From: Melioribacter roseus
GTDB lineage: Bacteria > Bacteroidota > Ignavibacteria > Ignavibacteriales > Melioribacteraceae
Length of the DNA stretch: 64,000 bases
Direction of reading: 5' to 3'
NCBI GenBank assembly: GCA_020724265.1
Contig: DYHH01000005.1
Coordinates: 138,650 to 202,649 of the forward strand
Shown in pieces: positions 43,629 to 56,402 of this stretch (the first letter of the stretch is position 1; each line of letters starts with the position of its first letter). Below the pieces are notes generated by a model. It saw nothing but the letters and a program-made list of their open reading frames with translations, was not told where the DNA came from and ran no database searches. The translations under genes were made by a program, and so were the position numbers.

Positions 43629-44606
43629 TTAGAAATTAATGTTTAGTCCAACAATATGTTGATCATGCGATGAATAAGGTTCAATCGCAAATGCGTAATT
43701 AAAACCGACAACACCAAAACCGAGAGGATGAAAATAAGAAAATCCTAACGAAGGTCTTACCGGAATATCAAAATTTCCAATATCAATTTTATCAACACCG
43801 CCTCTTAAATATAAGTTTTCATAAATGTTATACTCGGCTCCGAACCGGATATAATTTGTTTCTGCATTACTATTTTCAAATTCAATTGCTGCAATGATAT
43901 TAGGGTTATCTAATTTATATGAAACACCAATTTTTTTCAGAACAGGGAATTTATCAGTTGTTGATTTTCCACTTGCTCCATATAAATCCGATGTATCCCA
44001 TTCATACTTACTATTGATATCCGATATCATTAATGAAATAGTGATATTTTCATTCAGTAAATAAAGAGCGCCTATATCAAAACCTAAACTTGATGCATTA
44101 ACATCTTCATACAGTTTATAGTAATAAAATTTGAATGCAACACCAATTGCAAACTTTTCAGAAAATCGATTTGAAAGACCTAAGAAAAATTGATTTTCCG
44201 AAGTAGAAAGCGCATCAAATTGATTTCCTTGACTATCGCGCGCATCAATGTCATCAACGCCAGCATTAATTACACCAATTGTAACACCCGGTACAGCTCT
44301 GCCTTCTTCAATACTTCCAAAATTTCTTGTGAAGTTTACAAAATTGAGATTTCTATCCAATGATAAGAATGAGTAAGAAGTGTGGAAAGAATTTCCCTTT
44401 TGAAAAGAACTTAAAGCCGGGTTATAATAAGAATTTACTTCGCCCGATGTAACTGCAGACATAGCGTTCCCCATACCGATACCGCGGGCACCGAATCCCA
44501 TCCTGGAAAATGCACCTGGTTTACTCGCAATACTGCTGAATTCTGGTTGTGCTTGTAAACCGATTGTAAAGATTATACTTAATATGAAAATTATTTTTTT
44601 ATTCAA
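43629..44606 (-). CDS. PorV/PorQ-family outer-membrane beta-barrel protein (paralogue)
   Basis: A 325-residue paralogue of the downstream barrel: signal peptide (KKIIFILSIIFTIGLQAQ), FSRMGFGARGIGMGNAMSAVT, SGEVNSYYNPALSSF and repeated beta-strands ending HIVGLNINF. SLMISDINSKYEW and GVVGFNYAFA are typical of the family. Spacing to both neighbours (3 and 8 bases) suggests a single transcript with the secreted Asp-box protein. Whether it is a secretion factor or a solute pore is not decided by sequence. Confidence 0.85.
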   Translation of the reverse strand: MNKKIIFILSIIFTIGLQAQPEFSSIASKPGAFSRMGFGARGIGMGNAMSAVTSGEVNSYYNPALSSFQKGNSFHTSYSFLSLDRNLNFVNFTRNFGSIEEGRAVPGVTIGVINAGVDDIDARDSQGNQFDALSTSENQFFLGLSNRFSEKFAIGVAFKFYYYKLYEDVNASSLGFDIGALYLLNENITISLMISDINSKYEWDTSDLYGASGKSTTDKFPVLKKIGVSYKLDNPNIIAAIEFENSNAETNYIRFGAEYNIYENLYLRGGVDKIDIGNFDIPVRPSLGFSYFHPLGFGVVGFNYAFAIEPYSSHDQHIVGLNINF

Positions 44607-44614
44607 TGTAACCT

Positions 44615-46201
44615 CTACATTAATACCATAATTTTACCATACAATGGTTCATTTGAACCATGGTCGATTCTGTAAAAATAAACACCGTTAGGAACAAGAT
44701 TACCGTTTTGATCCCGTCCGTCCCAAAGTTCTCTTTGTTCAATGCCACCGATTCGAGGTGCATTTTGAATTACCGTTCTAACTAAGTTCATTCCGAAGTC
44801 AAAAATTCTAATTGTAACTTCGGCATCATTATTTCCTATAGTATATTGAATTGTAACTTTTGAACGATCGGGTGCGAAGGGATTTGGGAAAGCAAATGCT
44901 TTGATTTCTTCTGAAAGTTCTTGGGATGCTATGTAAACCGTCCAATTACCGGACCAGAATTCATTCCGTGTTTCATTCAATTTTGCCAAGCCGCGTAAAG
45001 AGCCCAGCCAAATATCAGTGGTAAAGTCAGATAAATACTTGGTTTCAACGGAACGAAAACTAGATGTTAATAATGATGCACCTGTTTGATCATCGATCGG
45101 TTTAGGGTTGGCAATCCATGTTGAACCATAATTGCTTGTCCTAAATACACCATTTTCCGTAGCAGCAAAAACTTCGGAACCAACTAAAGATTCTCCGGAA
45201 TACTTATACTTAAATCCAAAATCATGAACACGTTCATTAGGCAAGAAAGTTTTCCATGATTCACCGCCGTTTGATGAGGCACTAACAGCCCAATATTCAG
45301 ATAAATCTACAGCCTTCCAGGTAGCAGCCCATATTGTGTTTGAAAAGTTATCGTAATCTAAATCGACGATATAATTTCCGCTAATAGTTTCAATTTGATT
45401 TTGGTGATTAAATTTCAACCAACTAATTCCGCCGTCTGTTGATTTATTAATTCCATTGGCAGAACCAACAAACATAAGACTATCATTAACAACATGAATA
45501 GAAAACACTCTGTGATTAAGATTACCTTCAAGCCCAAGTTCACCGTCACTTGGTGATAAATCAAAATTTAATGTATCGTTCGGATGAATTGAATCAAGAT
45601 AATCAGGGGGTAAAACTACTCTTTGCCAGGTTTGCCCCAAATCGGTACTCTTTCTAAGTCCACCGGCAAAAGTAGCAATCCATACGGCATCGGATGTAAA
45701 TCCAATATCGTAAGTCATATTATTTACAGCAACCGTAATTGGAAGCGCATCTAATGTGTTGATACCGTAAGTGACTGTTCTATCATTTTGATCATCAACA
45801 GGTTGAGAGATTACAGTCCAGGTTTGACCATTATCAGTCGAAAAACGAAGACCAGCGCCTTCGACAAACGATTCACCGAAGAATTCGACAAAATCCCAAA
45901 GTCCCGCCCAAATAACTCCGTTATGAGAACCAACCTTAGAAACTTTCTTTATACCAAAATCTTGAGTTTGATAATAATTTGTCCAGCTTGATCCGTTATC
46001 TGTAGATTTACTTAACCCACGCGAAGTACCGAGCCAAATAGTTCCATTATTATCAATATGCACATGTTCAATAGTATTGCTTGCGGGTGTACTTGCAGTG
46101 ACCTTATAACTTTTCGGATTATCTAATTCAAAATAATAAGGGAGCGATTGCCCGAAAGAATAATAACCAAAAACAACAATTAATATGAATAATTTCTTCA
46201 T
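44615..46201 (-). CDS. Secreted Asp-box propeller protein with FlgD-like/T9SS-like C-terminal domain
   Basis: A 528-residue exported protein. After a signal peptide, at least six Asp-box-like repeats are visible (SKSTDNGSSWTNY, RFSTDNGQTWTVI, RKSTDLGQTWQRV, NKSTDGGISWLKF, SSNGGESWKTF, RTSNYGSTWIA), forming a probable beta-propeller as in sialidase or Ycf48-like folds without the catalytic residues. The C-terminal ~90 residues (FPNPFAPDRSKVTIQYTI, ELWDGRDQNGNLVPNGVYFY) match the FlgD-Ig/T9SS type A sorting domain. It is flanked by PorV-like barrels and a lipoprotein. Confidence 0.85.
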   Translation of the reverse strand: MKKLFILIVVFGYYSFGQSLPYYFELDNPKSYKVTASTPASNTIEHVHIDNNGTIWLGTSRGLSKSTDNGSSWTNYYQTQDFGIKKVSKVGSHNGVIWAGLWDFVEFFGESFVEGAGLRFSTDNGQTWTVISQPVDDQNDRTVTYGINTLDALPITVAVNNMTYDIGFTSDAVWIATFAGGLRKSTDLGQTWQRVVLPPDYLDSIHPNDTLNFDLSPSDGELGLEGNLNHRVFSIHVVNDSLMFVGSANGINKSTDGGISWLKFNHQNQIETISGNYIVDLDYDNFSNTIWAATWKAVDLSEYWAVSASSNGGESWKTFLPNERVHDFGFKYKYSGESLVGSEVFAATENGVFRTSNYGSTWIANPKPIDDQTGASLLTSSFRSVETKYLSDFTTDIWLGSLRGLAKLNETRNEFWSGNWTVYIASQELSEEIKAFAFPNPFAPDRSKVTIQYTIGNNDAEVTIRIFDFGMNLVRTVIQNAPRIGGIEQRELWDGRDQNGNLVPNGVYFYRIDHGSNEPLYGKIMVLM

Positions 46202-46202
46202 C

Positions 46203-46994
46203 TTATATCACTTGTAATAAATGAATGATTTTATTGCTTACTGCACCGGCTCTATCAACGGCTTCAAACTCAAAACGATATTCTCCTTTTGTGTTTGTAG
46301 GTGTAACTTCAATAATTCTTGAGAAAATTCCATCGCCTGCAGTATCATCACCATTCGCTTCTTGACCATCATCGAACATATTTACTTTATTACCGGTTGT
46401 TGATCCCGGACCAAATACCATAAAATAGACTTCGCGAATATCGATCAATCCGTTTTCATCGTCGACTGTAATATGAAGATTTATTAATGATCGAGGAGCC
46501 ACAACCACAACGGAATCCGGTGCAACTAAATTGCTGATTAAAGGTGGTTTGTTTTGTTGCCCGCTTATAAAAAGAAAATTATGCGATACAATTTTATGGA
46601 CTTTGTCATTTCCCGAACTAACATTATCTTCAACATAATATTCGGCAATATAATTACCGGTTGGAATACCTTTCCCTAATACAGTGCTTCCATAATATCC
46701 TCTTATCTCGGATGGTGTTAAACTTCCGCCAACCATCGAAACGTTTTGTTTTAACATTGTTGTACCGTCTTCGGTAATAATATTAAACCAAACACGAGAA
46801 ATTGATTGGGGGTTCGAAAACTCAATAGTCGTTTCGAAAGTTGAGTCTTGCTGTGTGTAAACGAATTCTTCCGGTGCATTTATCGAAACAAGTTTGAAGT
46901 CTGCATCTGAAGTTTCAATTACATCACTTGGAATATTTTCGCAAGAAACAAAAACGAAAAGACTTAAGAAAATTGCTATTATTATTTTATTCAT
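46203..46994 (-). CDS. Exported lipoprotein with Ig-like domains, function unknown
   Basis: A 263-residue lipoprotein: signal peptide with lipobox FVSC, mature Cys18 (C-E-N next, compatible with outer-membrane sorting). Two Ig-like or Cadherin-like beta domains follow: a region with VSMVGGSLTPSEIRGYYGSTV and a second with PPLISNLVAPDSVVVV, DDENGLIDIREVYFMVFGPG and GEYRFEFEAVDRAGAVSN. It begins the four-gene outer-membrane operon, one base before the Asp-box gene. No known function; a surface-exposed scaffold or binding protein is possible. Confidence 0.75.
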   Translation of the reverse strand: MNKIIIAIFLSLFVFVSCENIPSDVIETSDADFKLVSINAPEEFVYTQQDSTFETTIEFSNPQSISRVWFNIITEDGTTMLKQNVSMVGGSLTPSEIRGYYGSTVLGKGIPTGNYIAEYYVEDNVSSGNDKVHKIVSHNFLFISGQQNKPPLISNLVAPDSVVVVAPRSLINLHITVDDENGLIDIREVYFMVFGPGSTTGNKVNMFDDGQEANGDDTAGDGIFSRIIEVTPTNTKGEYRFEFEAVDRAGAVSNKIIHLLQVI

Positions 46995-47006
46995 GTTTTA
47001 ACCCAT

Positions 47007-47126
47007 AAAAAAAGGGAATCATTTTACTAAGAACCTACTGTATAAATTCTGATGCAGTATTAAAACCTTATTTTGATTAATCAGAAATACAGTAGAAATT
47101 CTCTATAAATGATTCCCTTTCTTTGT
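47007..47126 (-). terminator. Long nested hairpin, probable extended terminator or structured RNA
   Basis: Three nested stems are seen: AAAGGGAATCATTT (47011-47024) with AAATGATTCCCTTT (47107-47120), CTACTGTAT (47035-47043) with ATACAGTAG (47087-47095), and TTCTGAT (47047-47053) with ATCAGAA (47080-47086). On the minus strand the outer stem ends in GGGAATC/GATTCCC followed by seven T residues, so it can terminate transcripts from the site-2 protease gene. The ~110-nt size is far above a normal terminator. Confidence 0.7.
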
Positions 47127-47179
47127 TTAGACAAAACTAATTAATTTCTAAATTAATTGTCAAGTAAATATTCTTGCTC

Positions 47180-48181
47180 CTAAAATGAAACAATAAACGG
47201 CATCGGTGAAAATGATAACAGTAAAATTATTAAGCTAACATAGCCAAGAATCATTCTACCGTTACTTAGTTTTTCGAAATTCTGAACCGGCGGATGTTTT
47301 ACTTTAATAAAGAAATACAGAACAAACCCCCAGAATAACCATCCAGTCCAACCGATACTATTTTCTAAATCCATTAAGGTACTAAATAAACCGAGAGACC
47401 CGAACCCGAATAGAAACAACATTGAAATACTTGCGATAACCTCATGAATTTTTTCACCAAACATGCTGTAAACAATATGACCTCCATCCAACTGACCAAC
47501 GGGAATCATATTCATTGCAGTAACAAAAAGTCCGAACCAACCAACGCATAAAAACGGATAATGATAAATTTCAGACATCGGCGGAACAAATTGATCCGGC
47601 GAAGTTAATAATGTACGCAATGCAGCAAACAAAATCGTATCACCGAATTCCAAACTTAAAGCCCCTTCTCCGTACTCCGGTGTAAAATAGTCGGGATGAA
47701 TTTGTAAAATGTACTCTTCGCCTGGAAGATTGAGGAAACCGTAAACTAAAAGAATTAAACAAGCAACAAATCCGGCTATCGGACCTGCTACCCCAATATC
47801 AAACATTGCTTTATTATTGCTTACGGGAGTTCGGGTTTTTATAACAGCGCCTAAAGTTCCGAAGTGAAAAAAACCGGGTATAGGGGGAAAGGGTATAAAG
47901 TAAGGTAATGTTGCTTTTACTTTATGATATAGAGCTGCAAAGTAGTGACCGAATTCATGAACTCCCAGCATAAATAAGATTGATAAAGAGTAAGGTAATC
48001 CCTTTGCAAGCATTTCAAACTCATAAGGACCCATTGTTCCGGTAGTCCACTCAACTCCGGCAATAGTTGTAGTTACAAACGTAATTAAGAACAACCCGAT
48101 ATGAATCGGATAATTTTCTTTATGTTTCTTTAGTAAAGTAGAACCTATTCGATTTTCAGTATATAAATTTTGGTCATCCAT
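47180..48181 (-). CDS. Site-2 protease family (M50) membrane metalloprotease
   Basis: Intramembrane zinc protease, 333 residues with about six to eight hydrophobic segments. The metal-binding HEFGH (75-79) lies in LGVHEFGHYFAAL, and the third ligand in VGQLDGGHIVY. FGTLGAVIKTRTPVSN and FDIGVAGPIAGF are typical of plant-EGY-like/bacterial S2P homologues without a PDZ domain. The likely substrate is an envelope-associated protein, perhaps an anti-sigma factor, but none is nearby. It overlaps the upstream gene by one base. Confidence 0.88.
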   Translation of the reverse strand: MDDQNLYTENRIGSTLLKKHKENYPIHIGLFLITFVTTTIAGVEWTTGTMGPYEFEMLAKGLPYSLSILFMLGVHEFGHYFAALYHKVKATLPYFIPFPPIPGFFHFGTLGAVIKTRTPVSNNKAMFDIGVAGPIAGFVACLILLVYGFLNLPGEEYILQIHPDYFTPEYGEGALSLEFGDTILFAALRTLLTSPDQFVPPMSEIYHYPFLCVGWFGLFVTAMNMIPVGQLDGGHIVYSMFGEKIHEVIASISMLFLFGFGSLGLFSTLMDLENSIGWTGWLFWGFVLYFFIKVKHPPVQNFEKLSNGRMILGYVSLIILLLSFSPMPFIVSF

Positions 48182-49005
48182 TATAAATCTATATTAATAC
48201 CTATTGCGGAATATTCTTTGTTGAAATCATAATATTCACCGTGTATGCTTTTACCGGAATAATAATGAAAATAAATACTAATTCCCTTTCCTTCTTGTTT
48301 ACCGAATTTCAATCCGAGATTAACAGAATTATTACCGAAATAATCATCAATATTCACAAGCTTAAAATCATATGCAACAAATGGTGTTAAAAAATTACTA
48401 ATTAAATCTGAAGCGAAATAATCAAAACCGATTTGATAACTATCTTTACCTAATTCGGAAGGTGTTACATTTATTAAATATGTAAAACCAGCGTAAAATC
48501 GAATTCGATTCCATTTAATAAAAGGCATTAACTCAACGAACTCCCTGCTGTAAACTCTCGGAACTAATCCGTCACGCCATTGCTGTTTTTGATTATCAAA
48601 ATGACCGTCAACAAAATGAGCACTAATGTGGCTCAATCTTAAACGAGCACCGTATTCAATTTTATCTGTAGTTTTTTTATATCCGAAATTAATTCCGAAT
48701 AAATAATCAACGGCATCAACCGGGAAGTGGAAATCGCTCTCACCTCGTAATAAAGTATAAGTAAAAAGATCTGCACCGAAGGATAAGTATTCATCTTCAC
48801 TAATTTGATGACGAAGTACATCTATTGAATTACCTATATCCAATCTCAATTCATTTTCGCCGATCTGAAAAAGGAATCCAAGTTTTGGTTCTAAAATGTT
48901 TGCAGTGAATGGTTGTATCAATAAAACATCCGGAAAAATTTCGGTTTTATTTTGAGATAAAAATTGTGATGAAATTACAATCAGTAGAAGAATAATTTTT
49001 TTCAT
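48181..49005 (-). CDS. DUF1207-like outer-membrane beta-barrel protein
   Basis: A ~274-residue protein with a signal peptide (MKKIILLLIVISSQFLSQ). Mature strands of alternating character include FPDVLLIQPFTANILEPK, LRLSHISAHFVDGHF and YAGFTYLINV, and the terminus GINIDL fits a barrel closing strand. The FP-x-LL-x-P-FxAxxxEP pattern resembles DUF1207, an outer-membrane family of unknown function. I choose the ATG at 49005, because the upstream codons to 49044 would overlap the GT2 gene. It is one base from the site-2 protease start. Confidence 0.65.
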   Translation of the reverse strand: MKKIILLLIVISSQFLSQNKTEIFPDVLLIQPFTANILEPKLGFLFQIGENELRLDIGNSIDVLRHQISEDEYLSFGADLFTYTLLRGESDFHFPVDAVDYLFGINFGYKKTTDKIEYGARLRLSHISAHFVDGHFDNQKQQWRDGLVPRVYSREFVELMPFIKWNRIRFYAGFTYLINVTPSELGKDSYQIGFDYFASDLISNFLTPFVAYDFKLVNIDDYFGNNSVNLGLKFGKQEGKGISIYFHYYSGKSIHGEYYDFNKEYSAIGINIDL

Positions 49006-49015
49006 GTAATGTCCG

Positions 49016-50110
49016 CTATTTATATACTCTTCCCTTCCACTCAACTTTTCGGTTCGTTATTGTTATGAAAGGAAGAAGAGCAACATATAGAATAAAATAA
49101 ATTTCAAAAGCTACAAAGTTTTTAATTCGTAATGACAAGTTTAATTTGTCATGCACTCCTTTTAACGCAAAGTAATCAACAGCTATTTTGAAAAGTGTCA
49201 AATATAAAGATAGCGCCGAGAAAAAGAAAGGAAGTAAGATTATACATAAGTGCGTAATAAAACCGGTAGCCATAACTCCAAAACCGGCAAGATCACTTTT
49301 CAAGCCTCCAACACCCCAACGTTTTTTTTGTTTGATAAGCGACTTCCAAGTTGAACATGGTTTTGAAGTAACTAATCCTTCGGCAGTCAACGGATATATA
49401 ATTTTATATTTCTTCAACTTGTGCATCGCCATCAGTAAATTAAAATCCTCCGTAACAGAAAAAGGCAGTGACTCATATCCTCCAACTTCTTCATAGACAG
49501 ATTTGCGGTAAGACATATTATTACCGATACAGCTTAAAGGTTTGCCAAGATTCATAACACCACCGGCAATCATTAATAAGTAAGTGAAATCAACCGACTG
49601 CATACCGCCGAATAATGTTGTGTCAACTTGGTTTGTATATCCGCATACCATTGCTACATCATCTTTATAATATGATGCTAATTCTATTGCCCAAGTCTGT
49701 GAAACTCTGCAATCAGCATCCGTTGTAAAAATAATTTCACCTTTAGATTCTTTAATTGCATTAGCAAGAGCATTTGCTTTTCCTTTAAGCTGACCAATTT
49801 CCGCACCGGGTTCAAGGTATTTAAACCGAGATTTACCGTGTATAAATTTTTGTATTATATCTTTTGTGTTATCTGTTGAGTGATCGTTAACAATAAATAT
49901 TTCAATTTTATTTTCAGGGTATTTTAGATTTTCTAATGACTCTAAACAATCGAAAATATTTTTCTCTTCATTTCTTGCAGCAACAATTACAGATATAGAC
50001 GGCAGCTTATCATCCTCAATCTTTCCGAATCTTTTTTTCGACCCGATTATAAATATCACGGTTTGGAAAAAATAAACAACTATTATCGATATGAATATTA
50101 TTTCAAACAT
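49016..50110 (-). CDS. Family 2 glycosyltransferase, membrane-anchored
   Basis: GT-A glycosyltransferase of 364 residues with an N-terminal and two to three C-terminal membrane segments. SVIVAARNEEKNIFDCLESL and VNDHSTDNTKDII open the domain, TTDADCR supplies the DxD, TEDFNLLMAM the catalytic base region and QKKRWGVGG the QxxRW motif typical of processive (synthase-like) GT2 enzymes. It overlaps the deacetylase stop by 13 bases. It resembles the GT2 gene at 50733, suggesting a duplicated pair. Confidence 0.88.
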   Translation of the reverse strand: MFEIIFISIIVVYFFQTVIFIIGSKKRFGKIEDDKLPSISVIVAARNEEKNIFDCLESLENLKYPENKIEIFIVNDHSTDNTKDIIQKFIHGKSRFKYLEPGAEIGQLKGKANALANAIKESKGEIIFTTDADCRVSQTWAIELASYYKDDVAMVCGYTNQVDTTLFGGMQSVDFTYLLMIAGGVMNLGKPLSCIGNNMSYRKSVYEEVGGYESLPFSVTEDFNLLMAMHKLKKYKIIYPLTAEGLVTSKPCSTWKSLIKQKKRWGVGGLKSDLAGFGVMATGFITHLCIILLPFFFSALSLYLTLFKIAVDYFALKGVHDKLNLSLRIKNFVAFEIYFILYVALLPFITITNRKVEWKGRVYK

Positions 50111-50736
50111 TCTTCGGGAGTACCTATTTCAAAATTATTTTTCTGAATTGATTCATACAAGTAATCAATGGATTTCGATAAAATCTTATGCGAACTGAAT
50201 GAATCATGTAAAACAACAATTGAATTACTGCTTAAATAATTATCAACGGCATACTTCACTTTATTAAAATCGGATTCATAATCATAAGTAACCAACGACC
50301 ACATAACATTCTTTATACCAATTTTTCCTAACATCGATGCCTGGTATGGATAAATTCGTCCGTATGGTGCGCGGAAATATTTTATCTCGTAATTATATTT
50401 TGAAAAAAGAATCTCATTCATTTTGGAAATATCATCCAAAATTTTTGTATTAGTCATTTTTGTAATTTTATTATGATGCCAGCCGTGAGCGCCTATTGTA
50501 TGACCTCTATCCAACATTTCATTTATAATTTTTGAGTTTCCATCAAGATTTTCACCCTGGCAGAAGAAAACGGATTTAATATTGTATTGCTCTAATTGCT
50601 TCAATACTTCAGAAGTTACTCGCTGAGTAGGTCCGTCATCAAATGTTATCAAAACTTTATTACTTAATGAAGTCCAGATAGAATTTGGATAAATTTTTTT
50701 GAGCACATTCGGCGGAGCGTAAAAATATTTTCTCAT
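50098..50736 (-). CDS. Polysaccharide deacetylase (NodB homology domain)
   Basis: CE4-type deacetylase of about 212 residues. VLITFDDGPTQRVT gives the catalytic base and metal Asp, IGAHGWHHNKIT the metal His pair, and YFRAPYGRIYPYQ the Arg/Pro motif. VLHDSFSS is the C-terminal His motif. The start at 50736 makes an ATGA overlap with the upstream GT2. It lacks an obvious signal peptide, so it may act in the cytoplasm on a lipid-linked sugar rather than on peptidoglycan. Flanked by two GT2 genes. Confidence 0.88.
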   Translation of the reverse strand: MRKYFYAPPNVLKKIYPNSIWTSLSNKVLITFDDGPTQRVTSEVLKQLEQYNIKSVFFCQGENLDGNSKIINEMLDRGHTIGAHGWHHNKITKMTNTKILDDISKMNEILFSKYNYEIKYFRAPYGRIYPYQASMLGKIGIKNVMWSLVTYDYESDFNKVKYAVDNYLSSNSIVVLHDSFSSHKILSKSIDYLYESIQKNNFEIGTPEECLK

Positions 50737-51863
50737 CTTTTTACAACTTCCCCTTTCCACTTAAAATTACCGAATAAACCACCGATTGCAGCGGTAATAA
50801 TGTATGGTATTTGAATTATCTCTGCAAAAAGAAAAGGATGAAGAATTTCTTTTTGGTATAATGTTTTAGCACCATAATTTAATACCATATATTCAATAAT
50901 AATTTTTAATAACAAACTTAACCCGAATGTTAAAAATAAAACAGGATCAAAAAATAGACCCCCAATTAATTGTAATAAAAGACCCACGTAGAAAAGAAAT
51001 ATTAATATTATTTTCAAAACCAATTTTTTGTTATTATAGAACAAACCTTTACTCGCCCATCTTTTTCTTTGCTGAAAAAATTCTCCTGCACTATTTCTTG
51101 GTTTTGTTGTTACCATTGCTTCACGCTCAAAAGCAAACTTTATTTTATAAGATGTTTGTGAAGCAACTTTTTGTAAAAACAAATCGTCATCTCCGGACGA
51201 AAAACCGAGTTGATCATTATATCCGCCGACTTCTTCAAAAACGCTTTTTCTGTATGCAAAATTTGCAGCAGAACAAATTGTAGGTGAATTGACCCCGATT
51301 AATCCGGCACCTGTTAAGATTAAACCTGCAAATTCGAGTCGTTGAATTTTAGAAAATAGTTTTTCATCCGATTTTAATTCAACGGGTCCCGCGACTATGG
51401 CTGTCTTCTCATCAAAATATCCCAACATAACTTCCAGCCAGCGTGGATAAAAACTACAATCTGCATCCGTTGAAATAATAATCGGATTGCCGGAATTTAT
51501 AACACCTTCGATAAGTGCTTTTTTCTTTCGTGCTTGATTATCTCTGCCATTCTCAACTCTTATAATCTTTGAATTATTTGGTTTATAGTTAAGAAGTTTT
51601 TCATATGTATCGTCATTAGAATTATCGTCGATAAAAATTATTTCGTATTTATCTTCAGCTAAAGATTGTGAACTTAAACTTGCACATAAAGATTTTATAT
51701 TCTCCGATTCGTTTCGTAATGGAATAATAACAGAAATCAATCCGGCATTTTCATTTTTACCGGAAGTTTCTTGTAATCTTCTTAAACCGGCATAAACTTT
51801 CCCGATAAAGTAAACATAGTGGAGAGCAAGCAGAATAAAAATTAAGTAGATAATTTCCATCAC
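50733..51863 (-). CDS. Family 2 glycosyltransferase, membrane-anchored
   Basis: GT2 enzyme, 376 residues, with an N-terminal anchor and about three C-terminal helices. SVIIPLRNESENIKSLCASL, IIFIDDNSNDDTYEKL, STDADCSFYPRWLEVM, FSSGDDDLFLQKVA and FFQQRKRWASKG are the expected motifs of processive GT2 proteins. It is a probable paralogue of the 49016 gene. It overlaps the flippase-like gene by 4 bases (ATGA) and the deacetylase gene by 4. Confidence 0.88.
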   Translation of the reverse strand: MMEIIYLIFILLALHYVYFIGKVYAGLRRLQETSGKNENAGLISVIIPLRNESENIKSLCASLSSQSLAEDKYEIIFIDDNSNDDTYEKLLNYKPNNSKIIRVENGRDNQARKKKALIEGVINSGNPIIISTDADCSFYPRWLEVMLGYFDEKTAIVAGPVELKSDEKLFSKIQRLEFAGLILTGAGLIGVNSPTICSAANFAYRKSVFEEVGGYNDQLGFSSGDDDLFLQKVASQTSYKIKFAFEREAMVTTKPRNSAGEFFQQRKRWASKGLFYNNKKLVLKIILIFLFYVGLLLQLIGGLFFDPVLFLTFGLSLLLKIIIEYMVLNYGAKTLYQKEILHPFLFAEIIQIPYIITAAIGGLFGNFKWKGEVVKR

Positions 51864-52837
51864 TTATTCTTAATTAAAAAGATAAGACCGATTAAAGCCG
51901 GAAGAATTACATTGATAATAAAAAGCACCAAAGCCGAATTAAATCCGATTGCCGGAGAAAGAGAGATCATTGCGATAAGATATGCTGCAGCACCTTCACG
52001 TACACCTAAATCACCAAATGAAAACGGAAGGACAACGGTAGTGGCAAACAATATTAACGAAGCAATCACCATCAATTGAATAATATCCGAATAACTTGCA
52101 AATGCATTAACAAGTAGTGCGAATTGTAATAGTATTACTACAAAATAGAGAATATTTATAGAAAAGATTTTTGCCTTTACCGAAAAACTTTGCGATAAAA
52201 AATTATCAACAACCGAAATCTTGTTCAATACTTTTTGGTTATTCTTGAATTTTCGTTTTACAACACTTACAAAGAAATTACTGTTAAAGAGCATATAAAC
52301 AGTTATCGAAAACAACGATACAATAATTATTAATAGCGGGACGTCGACATAAAAGTGCGGTTCATTAAAAGAGCGATAAAAGAATACCGATGATATTGCC
52401 CCGAAGAAAGTGATAACAATCATGTTAATAATTTTATCAATAAACGAAACAATAGTAACACTGAAAAAATTAAATTCTTCAAGCGGAATTGCCCGCCCAA
52501 TAAATTCGCCAATTCTTGCCGGGGTTGATAACCCGGATGTAACCCCGCCGAAATAAGAATGCAACGCCCGCATAAAGGTAACCTTGCCGAGTGAATGATT
52601 AAGTACAAGTTTCCATTTATATGATTGTAAATAAATATTTACGAGGGATAAAATCGAGGCATAAAATATAAATTCATAATTAGCGGAGAGAAAAACATTG
52701 GTAATTTTATCTACCGAAATGTAGCTTACCAAAAAAATAAGTAGACCAATTGAAATAGCGACCTTTAAAACCCTGTCGATAGATTTCCGGTTTTCAGCAA
52801 TTTTTTGAAGTCTGTTTATTAGTGTATTTGTATCCAA
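51860..52837 (-). CDS. Lysylphosphatidylglycerol synthase-TM/flippase-like (UPF0104) membrane protein
   Basis: A polytopic protein of 325 residues with about eight hydrophobic helices, matching the LPG_synthase_TM family (also termed flippase-like or UPF0104). Landmarks are HSYFGGVTSGLSTPARIGEFIGRAI, of which the central GLSTPARIGEF is typical, and VLPFSFGDLGVREGAAAYL. No cytosolic aminoacyltransferase domain is fused. Such stand-alone domains often accompany glycosyltransferases and are thought to move lipid-linked products. It leads the overlapping six-gene cluster and is divergent from rsmA. Confidence 0.8.
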   Translation of the reverse strand: MDTNTLINRLQKIAENRKSIDRVLKVAISIGLLIFLVSYISVDKITNVFLSANYEFIFYASILSLVNIYLQSYKWKLVLNHSLGKVTFMRALHSYFGGVTSGLSTPARIGEFIGRAIPLEEFNFFSVTIVSFIDKIINMIVITFFGAISSVFFYRSFNEPHFYVDVPLLIIIVSLFSITVYMLFNSNFFVSVVKRKFKNNQKVLNKISVVDNFLSQSFSVKAKIFSINILYFVVILLQFALLVNAFASYSDIIQLMVIASLILFATTVVLPFSFGDLGVREGAAAYLIAMISLSPAIGFNSALVLFIINVILPALIGLIFLIKNK

Positions 52838-53699: not shown

Positions 53700-55062
53700 A
53701 GAAATACGAGACCTGTCGAAATTTGATTCCGAGATTTACGAAAATATTTCGACGCTGATTGAAAATGAAGCTGATAAAAGTCTTGTCAACTTGCTTGCCG
53801 ATCTGCACTCTGCCGATATCGGTGAAATAATAAATCACTTGGATTTTGATGATGCGGTATATACTTTCAAATTACTAGATCATGAAGTAGCCGGTGAAGT
53901 ATTAACCGAACTTGATGAAAATTTGCGAGAAAGACTACTTGCGGAAATTGAAACCGATCACATTGCAAACATTGTTGATCAGCTTGATACAGATGATGCA
54001 ACAGATATTGTCAGTGATCTTCCCGAGCAAATTAAAGAACAAGTACTTGATAAGATTGATAAGGAATATTCCGAAGATGTAAAAGAACTTCTTAAATACC
54101 CCGAAGATACTGCCGGCGGTATAATGAACAGTGACTTCGTTTTTGTTTACGAAAGTCAACTTGTTAAAGATGCTATCGAAGAAGTAAGAAAAAACGCCGA
54201 AGAAATTGATCACATATATTACATTTATGTATTAAAGGATAATCACGAATTAGTCGGTACAGTTTCGTTAAAATCACTTTTGATTAATCCCCTTGATAAA
54301 CCTATTTCTTCCATTATGGAAGAAGATTTAGTATATGTTACACCCGAAGTAGATCAGGAAGAAGTTGCAAGATTGATTGAAAAGTACGACATCGTTTCAA
54401 TTCCGGTTGTTGATGAAAAAATGATTATGCTTGGTAGAATTACAGTTGATGATGTTGTTGACGTAATACACGAAGAAGCATCGGAAGATTTACAGCGACT
54501 GGCTGGTTTATCCGAAGAAGAAGAATTCAGCGATAGCTCATTTCGAATTTCTCGTAATAGATTACCTTGGTTACTAATCGGTTTGACCGGTGAATTAATT
54601 AGTGCAGTGGTTTTGTTTTCTTTTGAAGCTTCAATTGCACAAATCATTATTGCGAGTTTCTTTATCCCTGTAGTTATGGCTATGGGTGGAAGTTCCGGTA
54701 CCCAAGCAGCAATTGTTATGGTAAAAAGTTTAACTGAAAGTGAGTATTGGATAAGAGATTCTTTGAAAAGAATATTTAAGGAATTTAGAGTCGCTCTTTT
54801 AAATGCTACGGTATGCAGTGCGGTATTATTGTTTGTAACTCACTACTTCTTTAAAGCTGAAGTATACTTTACACTGGTGCTAACATTTTCACTTTTTATT
54901 ATTATGACCAATGCAACGATGATAGGTGCATTAATACCAATAATTATGAAAAAAGTCGGTGCCGATCCGGCTATTGCAACCGGACCTTTAGTAACAACTA
55001 TAAATGATATTTTAGGATTATCAATTTATCTCACCCTGGTTACCATATTTCTGATTCAATGA
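53677..55062 (+). CDS. mgtE: Magnesium transporter MgtE
   Basis: Mg2+-gated channel of 461 residues. The acidic MgtE_N superhelix (about 20-135) contains LHSADIGEIINHLDF and repeats of L-x-x-L. Then come two CBS domains (about 140-265, ILV-type IMEEDLVYVTPEVDQEEVARL and IVSIPVVDEKMIMLGRITVDD) and five C-terminal helices with MAMGGSSGTQAAIVMVKSL and ATGPLVTTINDILGL, the pore motifs. It overlaps rsmA at the 5' end and PAP2 by 4 bases at the 3' end. Confidence 0.95.
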   Translation: MSNPTENKEIRDLSKFDSEIYENISTLIENEADKSLVNLLADLHSADIGEIINHLDFDDAVYTFKLLDHEVAGEVLTELDENLRERLLAEIETDHIANIVDQLDTDDATDIVSDLPEQIKEQVLDKIDKEYSEDVKELLKYPEDTAGGIMNSDFVFVYESQLVKDAIEEVRKNAEEIDHIYYIYVLKDNHELVGTVSLKSLLINPLDKPISSIMEEDLVYVTPEVDQEEVARLIEKYDIVSIPVVDEKMIMLGRITVDDVVDVIHEEASEDLQRLAGLSEEEEFSDSSFRISRNRLPWLLIGLTGELISAVVLFSFEASIAQIIIASFFIPVVMAMGGSSGTQAAIVMVKSLTESEYWIRDSLKRIFKEFRVALLNATVCSAVLLFVTHYFFKAEVYFTLVLTFSLFIIMTNATMIGALIPIIMKKVGADPAIATGPLVTTINDILGLSIYLTLVTIFLIQ

Positions 55063-56021
55063 AAAAAATTAATTCAATTATTCTAAATCTTAATGCTACG
55101 GATTTACTAGTAGTTATTTTCACATCGTTGCTTTCTCTTACGGCTATTTATTTTAATTCAAGAGTGATATATTGGAAGGAAATTGTTGTAATAAATTTAT
55201 TCTTAGGACTTTTCGTTTTTTCACTTGCTTATTTTGATGAACATAAACGAAATATGTTCACTCATCAATTACGCTTCTGGTATCTTGTCCCTACCATTCT
55301 CCTTGTTTTCAAAGAAATTTATTTTATGGTTGACCCGATACGCGGAAAGATTTACGATCAGCTTTTAATTGATATAGACAGATTTTTGTTCGGTACCGAT
55401 CCTACTTATGTTCTTTACAACATTGCAAATCCTTACTTAACGGAATTACTGCAAATTGTCTACGGAACATTTTTCTTTTTACCTATAATTCTTGGAATCA
55501 GTTTATTATTCAAAGGTAAGAAAAGAGAACTGCATTACATGGCGTTTATAATTGTACTGGGATTTTTCTTGTCATACATTGGATACTTTTTACTTCCGGC
55601 CATTGGACCAAGATTTACTTTACACGATTTCGCTTTAAATGATATTGAAATCCCAGGATTATTTTTAACGGATTTCCTTCGTGAAGTAGTAAATTCAGGC
55701 GAATCAATTCCGAAAGGGACTCCAAATCCGGCACAAGTAGTACAGCGAGATGCATTTCCCAGCGGACATACTCAAATGACATTGCTTGTTATGTATTTAT
55801 CAATAAAGTATAGAAGCAGGTCTAAGTATTTCTTTATTCCGAACGGAACTCTTTTAATATTTGCAACTGTTTATTTAAGATACCATTACGTAATAGATCT
55901 TATTGCCGGTGCGGCATTCATGGTATTGACGTTGTGGATCGGTAAATATCTTTTCAATTGGTGGATGGAAATACGCGGTGATCAAAAATTTTATCTTGAT
56001 AAAATTCAGATAACCCCTTGA
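55059..56021 (+). CDS. PAP2-superfamily membrane phosphatase/transferase
   Basis: A 320-residue polytopic protein with the PAP2-type motifs FPSGHTQMTLLVMY (motif 2) and LRYHYVIDLIAGAAF (motif 3). The region IDIDRFLFGTDPT and a weak motif 1 suggest the inositol phosphotransferase-like PAP2_3 branch rather than classical phosphatidate phosphatase. It could hydrolyse or transfer lipid phosphate at the outer face of the inner membrane. The ATGA overlap with mgtE and 16-base convergent overlap with the next gene are notable. Confidence 0.82.
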   Translation: MKKINSIILNLNATDLLVVIFTSLLSLTAIYFNSRVIYWKEIVVINLFLGLFVFSLAYFDEHKRNMFTHQLRFWYLVPTILLVFKEIYFMVDPIRGKIYDQLLIDIDRFLFGTDPTYVLYNIANPYLTELLQIVYGTFFFLPIILGISLLFKGKKRELHYMAFIIVLGFFLSYIGYFLLPAIGPRFTLHDFALNDIEIPGLFLTDFLREVVNSGESIPKGTPNPAQVVQRDAFPSGHTQMTLLVMYLSIKYRSRSKYFFIPNGTLLIFATVYLRYHYVIDLIAGAAFMVLTLWIGKYLFNWWMEIRGDQKFYLDKIQITP

Positions 56022-56329
56022 TCAACTTTTTTTATAGTCTCAACAATTAATGAAAAATATCTGTCTAATGAACAATTTGCATCATCACGCAAGTAACAAT
56101 GATCTTTGTCATCGGATGCGGCACATTCGGCACAAATTGTATCTTTTAATTTGGCATGATATTCTGCTAAATCATCTGAATCAATCGAATGAACAACTTC
56201 TAAAATTTTTGGAAGGTAATACTCAACAGCACATAATTCTTTTGTGGTAAGTGTGCAATCTCCGTCATCATCGGAATCGACACAAATTGCACAAACATTT
56301 TTTCTTATTGCATCTATGTATCTTTGCAT
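56006..56329 (-). CDS. Small cysteine-rich protein with duplicated C-x2-C-x8-C-x7-C motif
   Basis: Unrecognised 107-residue soluble protein. Two tandem ~50-residue repeats each carry four cysteines at identical spacing: C13-C16-C25-C33 and C66-C69-C78-C86. Acidic residues (SDDDGDC, SDDKDHC) sit between the second and third cysteine, and LPKILEVV or FSLIVETI helices follow. The pattern suggests two metal or Fe-S sites (inference). I start at ATG 56329, which has GAGGAAATA ahead of it, rather than 56383. It overlaps the 3' end of the convergent PAP2 gene by 16 bases. Confidence 0.75.
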   Translation of the reverse strand: MQRYIDAIRKNVCAICVDSDDDGDCTLTTKELCAVEYYLPKILEVVHSIDSDDLAEYHAKLKDTICAECAASDDKDHCYLRDDANCSLDRYFSLIVETIKKVDQGVI

Positions 56330-56402
56330 TATTTCCTCTAATTTCGATATGAAAAATTTACCAATTAAGGGATGTATTTTCAAGTTGACAATTTATTGAC
56401 AA

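Follow-up and report, generated by a model that had tools for sequence, protein, structure and literature searches.

Described systems and the cluster of Melioribacter roseus

Two described bacterial operons combine a glycosyltransferase (GT), a deacetylase and a putative flippase in the synthesis of an amino-sugar lipid. The hexSDF operon of Clostridioides difficile encodes a GT, a polysaccharide deacetylase and an MprF-like flippase, and its product is described as aminohexosyl-hexosyldiradylglycerol (PMC10128005), whereby the hexosyl lipid on which HexSDF acts is reported to be made by a separate GT, UgtA (PMC11898633). The gpgSDF operon of Pseudomonas aeruginosa encodes a GT, a deacetylase predicted by its authors to be cytoplasmic (GpgD) and a UPF0104 flippase, and glucosaminyl phosphatidylglycerol is described as its product (PMC12713373). 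In both systems the flippase activity is unproven. For archaea, a polysaccharide deacetylase and a GT are described as a typical context of UPF0104 genes (arCOG00899; MA0797-MA0798), and in AglD UPF0104 is fused to a glycosyltransferase domain; the authors favour a role in glycosylation (PMC5898192). Here, we analyze a gene cluster of Melioribacter roseus (Bacteroidota) that lies in a 64-kb stretch of DNA (GCA_020724265.1, contig DYHH01000005.1, 138,650 to 202,649), designated the window, to which all coordinates refer. It encodes a flippase-like protein (FLP), two membrane GTs of family GT2 (GTA and GTB) and a NodB-type deacetylase (DAC). The analysis confirms the cluster and shows it to be old. 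FLP, GTA and DAC occur together, mostly even when their genes lie apart, and by analogy we consider it probable (roughly 60%) that the cluster encodes an amino-sugar glycolipid pathway like HexSDF and GpgSDF, here built with GT2 enzymes.

An earlier interpretation of the window, which we call the sequence-only reading, had described six genes that are linked by short overlaps or a short gap, and coordinates and Pfam matches confirm this arrangement, with all six on the minus strand:

51860..52837, minus strand: FLP, PF03706 (UPF0104/MprF-type flippase-like) membrane protein; Pfam LPG_synthase_TM 81.3 bits, cut-off 33.4; TTG start
50733..51863, minus strand: GTA, membrane GT2 glycosyltransferase, proposed N-acetylhexosaminyl transferase (S step); Glycos_transf_2 90.5 bits
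50098..50736, minus strand: DAC, NodB-type deacetylase, proposed cytoplasmic de-N-acetylase; PF01522 Polysacc_deac_1 104.2 bits; ATG start at 50736
49016..50110, minus strand: GTB, membrane GT2 glycosyltransferase, proposed maker of a hexosyl-lipid acceptor; Glycos_transf_2 89.5 bits
48181..49005, minus strand: BAR, DUF1207-like outer-membrane barrel candidate; DUF1207 29.3 bits, cut-off 22; ATG start at 49005
47180..48181, minus strand: M50 (site-2-type) protease; Peptidase_M50 (PF02163) 69.8 bits

GTA can start with GTG at 51863 or with ATG at 51860, and accordingly overlaps FLP by 4 bases or 1 base. GTA and DAC overlap by 4 bases, DAC and GTB by 13 bases and BAR and M50 by 1 base, and GTB and BAR are separated by 10 bases. 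The whole assembly holding the window comprises 3.77 Mb, and the nearest named relative found is an Ignavibacteria metagenome-assembled genome (MAG; locus L055) with 85% identity in GTA.

The sequence-only reading had also stated that no canonical pathway matches this gene set, which can no longer be maintained, as HexSDF (PMC10128005) and GpgSDF (PMC12713373) share its logic. As in both operons, a UPF0104/PF03706 gene is part of the unit and a deacetylase gene, here of PF01522, is linked to flippase and GT. HexSDF unites the same three kinds of protein in one operon and places an amino sugar on a hexosyl lipid from a separate GT; however, HexS is annotated as a monogalactosyldiacylglycerol (MGDG) synthase, whereas both GTs here belong to GT2 and the second one is encoded in the operon itself. 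Moreover, deacetylation takes place on the outer leaflet according to the HexSDF authors, and many clusters related to that of the window include an additional radical SAM gene, which neither published operon contains as described. GpgSDF likewise joins a GT, a deacetylase and a UPF0104 flippase in a single operon, and its deacetylase is predicted to be cytoplasmic, as is DAC by hydropathy, but GpgS is a GT4 enzyme and GpgD belongs to COG3233, in contrast to GT2 and NodB/PF01522 here, and its one GT acts on phosphatidylglycerol. Since the GT families differ, the Bacteroidota cluster is regarded as working like HexSDF and GpgSDF and is not filed as a member of either. The archaeal UPF0104 context has the same three gene kinds as well, and differs in that it is archaeal and putatively linked to protein glycosylation. 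No paper on the Bacteroidota cluster was found among the literature matches listed, which were judged by title and start of the abstract, with subscription papers outside the scope. The flexirubin export genes flxP-flxU of Chitinophaga, which include a deacetylase and a GT, are by their description another gene set and were set apart (PMC3992019).

Co-occurrence and gene order

A neighbourhood survey, which the sequence-only reading had proposed, revealed strong conservation across 58 and 148 genomes and a recurring gene order. The 58 genomes comprise the window's own and 57 relatives. With thresholds of E 1e-10 for FLP and better than E 1e-50 for GTA, FLP was found in 46 of them and GTA in 46, both occurring together throughout (46 both, 12 neither). 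A DAC match is present in 48 genomes, 47 of which were counted as orthologues, since those of genome G039 are distant. FLP and DAC are both present in 45 genomes and both absent from 10; one genome has FLP only (G039) and two have DAC only, namely G027, with DAC close to one end of a 4.8 kb contig, and G032, where a GTA fragment with a stop lies beside DAC. Among 148 genomes of the phylum, surveyed with thresholds that we set (GTA E up to 2e-80, FLP under 1e-35, DAC up to 1e-30), GTA occurs in 56, FLP in 51 and DAC in 59, with all three in 48 and none in 87 genomes (Fisher P ~1e-26 to 1e-32, kinship uncorrected). FLP without GTA was recorded once (G099, where a GTA-like gene beside FLP reached 1.7e-63 and was scored GTA-negative), and DAC without GTA in five genomes. 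The DAC threshold probably admits some paralogues, such as those of G039, G068 and G146; an FLP match at 9.7e-22 in G085 was excluded. Of 50 genomes compared, 40 have FLP and GTA side by side; in the other 10 the two lie apart, and the FLP match may be a paralogue there. In many genomes DAC is located elsewhere and still co-present.

Gene order was compared in loci annotated with home-made profiles and mechanically set starts of open reading frames. These loci were picked for having a GT match, and locus counts are therefore not a random sample, whereas the genome tallies above cover whole sampled genomes, with that of the window among them; L055 and L058, which duplicate the records of L035 and L045, as well as L001-L034 and L089-L137, whose flanks are short, were left out of the counts. 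Many loci of the window's order share the arrangement FLP-GTA-DAC-GTB-rSAM2-BAR-M50, rSAM2 being the radical SAM gene. In six loci (L051-L054, L176, L177), FLP, GTA and DAC are missing between KsgA and GTB, and GTB, BAR and M50 are kept. Fulvivirga, Spirosoma and Persicitalea have FLP-GTA and DAC-GTB-TatD-asparaginase beside ruvC, with a SpoIIE-type phosphatase between FLP-GTA and DAC in the three Fulvivirga loci, and in other Bacteroidota FLP-GTA is followed by an OppC-type permease. A further GT gene, GT', lies directly upstream of FLP in L138, L139, L140, L142, L061, L152 and L163 and is absent from the window's cluster; BMS3Bbin03 (L061) and two genomes of another class (L152, L163) have the order GT'-FLP-GTA-DAC-GTB-rSAM2, and a Latescibacterota MAG (L088) has DAC-GTB-rSAM2. 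Where DAC and GTB are adjacent, they share exactly 13 bases in 20 of 41 pairs, including two Fulvivirga loci. This repeated overlap and the recurring order are more than chance would produce. In a quick GT tree of 64 rows from 36 hand-picked loci, with support from the Shimodaira-Hasegawa-like approximate likelihood ratio test only, 30 GTs downstream of FLP fall into one group with 2 others (support 89), 22 GTs downstream of DAC into one group with 2 others (support 90), and six GT' proteins form a group of their own (support 94). The recurring architecture together with the separate GT groups shows that the cluster is old and that its slots are specific. In the Cytophagales loci L060, L063, L067, L069 and L070, ruvC diverges from the start of the cluster, which continues into the TatD and asparaginase genes.

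The two glycosyltransferases

The DxD and QxxRW regions are kept in both GTs. The QxxRW motif, which the sequence-only reading had reported for both proteins, is indeed present at Q264-W268 of GTA and Q261-W265 of GTB, and simple patterns recovered it in 79 of 88 GTA sequences (fragments and GT' included) and in 49 of 49 GTB sequences. However, its interpretation as a sign of processive synthases is not supported. Mammalian glucosylceramide synthase is reported to depend on a (Q/R)xxRW motif that the plant enzymes lack (PMC6536669, PMC6219604), so that QxxRW by itself is no proof of a polymer, and both GTs align with ceramide glucosyltransferase (PDB 26qf, 26qs). This match extends over positions 5-362 of 363 in the GTB profile (E 8.6e-18) and over positions 5-362 of 379 in the GTA profile (E 1.6e-9). 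Among the matches listed (60 rows for GTB, the best 60 of 62 for GTA), the two ceramide glucosyltransferase sequences are the only ones aligned nearly end to end, and higher-scoring matches, to chondroitin synthase and an archaeal mannosyltransferase, span just the N-terminal part of the GT domain. The likeness is a distant similarity. Within the GT-A core, GTA also resembles ArnC and dolichol-phosphate-mannose synthase, the ArnC matches stopping at about residue 177.

The predicted models of GTA and GTB (mean predicted local distance difference test scores of 94.8 and 93.7, respectively) each show one long helix in the N-terminal part and three long ones in the C-terminal part. Hyaluronan synthase is the best fold match of either model, with Z 29.9, a root-mean-square deviation (rmsd) of 3.0 and 350 aligned residues for GTA, and Z 29.1, rmsd 2.9 and 344 aligned residues for GTB, followed in both cases by an archaeal mannosyltransferase and then by cellulose synthases. 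Ceramide glucosyltransferase is not among the listed fold matches, the presence of the 26q entries in the fold library being unchecked. Judged from these models, fold alone does not separate processive from single-step GTs. Among NCBIfam models, PgaC/IcaA matches both GTs best (75.3 and 108.3 bits), and neither reaches its cut-off of 422.3. The HpnI model gave 24.6 and 56.2 bits against a cut-off of 310, and the ArnC model 31.4 bits for GTA against a cut-off of 529, with no ArnC row for GTB among the best 25 of 26.

Deacetylase and flippase-like protein

Across the 14 rows of an alignment, the residues of the TFDDGP, His, Arg and HD motifs of DAC vary little or not at all, and simple patterns detected all three motifs in 42 of 47 orthologues and missed one in the remaining five. 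By hydropathy only, with no signal-peptide program used, no 15-residue window before TFDDG exceeded 1.6 in any of the 41 orthologues measured, the other six of the 47 spelling the motif otherwise and thus being outside the measurement; a membrane-like window anywhere in the protein occurs in one of 43 DAC proteins. From the intact NodB motifs and the missing signal peptide it can be assumed that DAC acts in the cytoplasm before export. DAC stayed far from the ArnD model (11.9 bits, cut-off 382), and neither DAC nor BAR had a match in PHROGs.

FLP gave no match against PDB by sequence, neither as a single sequence nor as a 14-row profile. The window's genome contains three further PF03706 genes, two of which adjoin lipid-type genes, which agrees with a lipid role: one lies beside a CDP-alcohol phosphatidyltransferase and a HAD phosphatase (L002), the other beside a HAD phosphatase and a Gfo/Idh oxidoreductase (L003). 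Both loci look like inositol-type lipid operons; a partial protein of L003, by eye similar to the L002 transferase, had no Pfam match.

Radical SAM partners in relatives

The radical SAM gene rSAM2 is present in 27 of the 58 genomes, exclusively in genomes that have FLP and GTA, and adjoins GTB in all 27 when coordinates are compared by eye. Its product is strikingly conserved: 25 of the 26 other genomes show 64-71% identity to the query (L047:10056-11048), and the remaining one, G054, shows 53%. For comparison, GTA reaches 85% identity to the window in the closest genome and about 32-57% in the remaining genomes that have an orthologue. The best NCBIfam rows of rSAM2, all far below cut-off, belong to MoaA (87.1 and 83.5 bits) and to the PTO1314 family (80.2 bits), and HpnH was matched with 40.3 bits (cut-off 225), aligned over most of the model. 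No rSAM2 was found in the window's genome in a search at E 1e-20, nor was it found in the window's genus. In some relatives, a second radical SAM/SPASM gene (rSAM1) lies directly upstream of FLP, for example at L043:5025-6032 and L039:5604-6617.

Proposed pathway and alternatives

By analogy with HexSDF and GpgSDF, we infer substrates, acceptor, product, order of steps and flipping as follows. GTB would add one hexose to a membrane lipid at the cytoplasmic face, and GTA would add an N-acetylhexosamine to the glycolipid made by GTB or directly to a lipid. DAC would then deacetylate the sugar in the cytoplasm before export, leading to a cationic or zwitterionic head group, and FLP, as its family suggests, would move the finished lipid to the periplasmic leaflet. 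Since GTB is kept where FLP-GTA-DAC is absent, it fits the acceptor-making GT and would be parallel to UgtA. In the six loci lacking FLP, GTA and DAC, the F, S and D parts are absent as a unit, which parallels the division between the UgtA acceptor and HexSDF. The alignment of both GTs with ceramide glucosyltransferase over nearly their full length also speaks for the proposal, since that enzyme adds sugar to a lipid. The sequence-only reading had proposed a lipid-linked amino-sugar polymer or glycolipid pathway with export; of this, the lipid-linked amino-sugar or glycolipid route, export included, is the best reading, and the survey shows strong conservation, whereas QxxRW as the sign of a processive synthase and the membership of the barrel are not supported. 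If the pathway is as proposed, much of the phylum has an amino-sugar lipid that lowers the negative membrane charge, an effect that the HexSDF and GpgSDF authors suggest for their products (PMC10128005, PMC12713373). In that case the genes behind the unidentified aminoglycolipids that are reported for some Bacteroidota, e.g., Luteirhabdus pelagi (PMC8590676), would also become testable. The cluster would furthermore be another case of GT, deacetylase and PF03706 protein acting together, here with GT2 enzymes, which suggests that this combination arose more than once.

Several points weigh against this proposal. HexS and GpgS belong to other GT families and GpgD to COG3233, so that the whole systems need not be homologous. 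The HexSDF authors draw deacetylation after flipping, in the outer leaflet, and report that the product is still made without HexF (PMC10128005); similarly, a gpgF mutant is described as still having the product at a lower level (PMC12713373). Genome G039 combines FLP, GTA, GTB and rSAM2 with no more than distant deacetylases, and among the 56 GTA-positive genomes six lack FLP and two lack DAC at the chosen thresholds, one of the latter being G058, which has a 96-bit DAC in its locus L163. In a GTB tree of 31 rows, the seven rows without the cassette need just two changes, and the P values of co-occurrence thus overstate independence. Hyaluronan synthase as the best fold of both GT models would also be compatible with a short chain or a polymer. 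Finally, a HexSDF-like model leaves the radical SAM partner of many relatives unexplained.

This conserved partner points to chemistry not seen in HexSDF or GpgSDF. A tentative extension of the proposal is that the ancestral cluster GT'-FLP-GTA-DAC-GTB-radical SAM makes an undescribed membrane lipid across much of Bacteroidota, reaching Latescibacterota, namely an amino-sugar glycolipid in which the HpnH-like enzyme alters the lipid or the sugar part; the chemistry would be unlike that of the HexSDF and GpgSDF products, and the window's genus might keep a simpler version without the radical SAM step. The main rival to a glycolipid product is rather unlikely in our view. It assumes synthesis of a polyprenyl-phosphate amino sugar, its deacetylation in the cytoplasm and its flipping by FLP, after which a periplasmic transferase from another locus would pass it to lipopolysaccharide, lipid A or protein. 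This follows the logic of ArnC-ArnD and FlmF-NaxD, and ArnD and NaxD are indeed cytoplasmic deacetylases that act on lipid carriers. The matches of GTA to ArnC and dolichol-phosphate-mannose synthase over the GT-A core would fit as well, but the helix layout of both GTs and their full-length alignment with ceramide glucosyltransferase do not, the ArnC matches end at about residue 177, the cut-offs for ArnC and ArnD were not reached, and no periplasmic transferase was noticed by eye among the displayed neighbour genes, without a systematic scan. The archaeal UPF0104 genes found with a deacetylase and a GT, for which glycosylation is favoured by the authors (PMC5898192), are a further argument on its side.

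Two independent modules in one operon, FLP-GTA and DAC-GTB, would account for genomes in which the pairs lie apart (e.g., G053 with L041 and L164) and for the occurrence of GTB alone. Such a division is improbable, as genomes mostly have either all of FLP, GTA and DAC or none of them, also where the genes are not adjacent, and other joins exist as well, such as FLP-DAC-GTB with GTA elsewhere in G007 (L165, L166). A processive synthase that produces a partly deacetylated polysaccharide like poly-N-acetylglucosamine (PNAG), with BAR as the outer-membrane exit, is even harder to reconcile with the data. PgaC/IcaA as the best NCBIfam match, hyaluronan synthase as the nearest fold and the adjoining NodB deacetylase and barrel would be in line with it; yet the two GTs do not approach the PNAG synthase cut-off (75.3 and 108.3 versus 422.3 bits), DAC has no signal peptide and would therefore not meet the extruded polymer, a flippase should not be needed, and BAR is absent from annotated loci outside the window's class and Ignavibacteria. 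A hopanoid-type head group is the most improbable of these products. It would follow the logic of HpnI and HpnK, in which a sugar is put on the lipid and then deacetylated, and would involve the HpnH-like radical SAM protein of the relatives; HpnK, however, is another deacetylase family. Apart from the weak matches to HpnI (24.6 and 56.2 bits) and of rSAM2 to HpnH (40.3 bits), a clear squalene-hopene cyclase would be expected, but its N domain (PF13249) was not found in the window's genome and gave one match in the 58 genomes (G021, 21.6 bits), which passes the cut-off of 26.2 only together with in-frame neighbours.

Neighbouring genes

Among 93 annotated loci, only those from the window's class or from named Ignavibacteria contain BAR, which remains beside GTB and M50 in loci without FLP-GTA-DAC. 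BAR and M50 are therefore neighbours of the cluster and not part of its core, and the barrel, which the sequence-only reading had included in the functional set, is better described as a regional neighbour. Divergent from FLP are genes that we take to encode KsgA and MgtE, named from their sequences rather than by a domain scan, and a PAP2-family membrane protein (55059-56021, plus strand), which weakly matches phosphoinositol dihydroceramide synthase (21.9 bits, cut-off 480). Positions 56006-56383 (minus strand) encode a protein of 125 residues in which a Cys pattern is repeated and for which neither Pfam nor NCBIfam gave a match. On the other side of the cluster, positions 43629-48181 encode M50, a protein with a choice-of-anchor-X match, a protein weakly matching FlgD_ig/CHU_C and a protein that is presumably PorV-like, and this order is kept beside GTB-BAR in many loci of the window's order.

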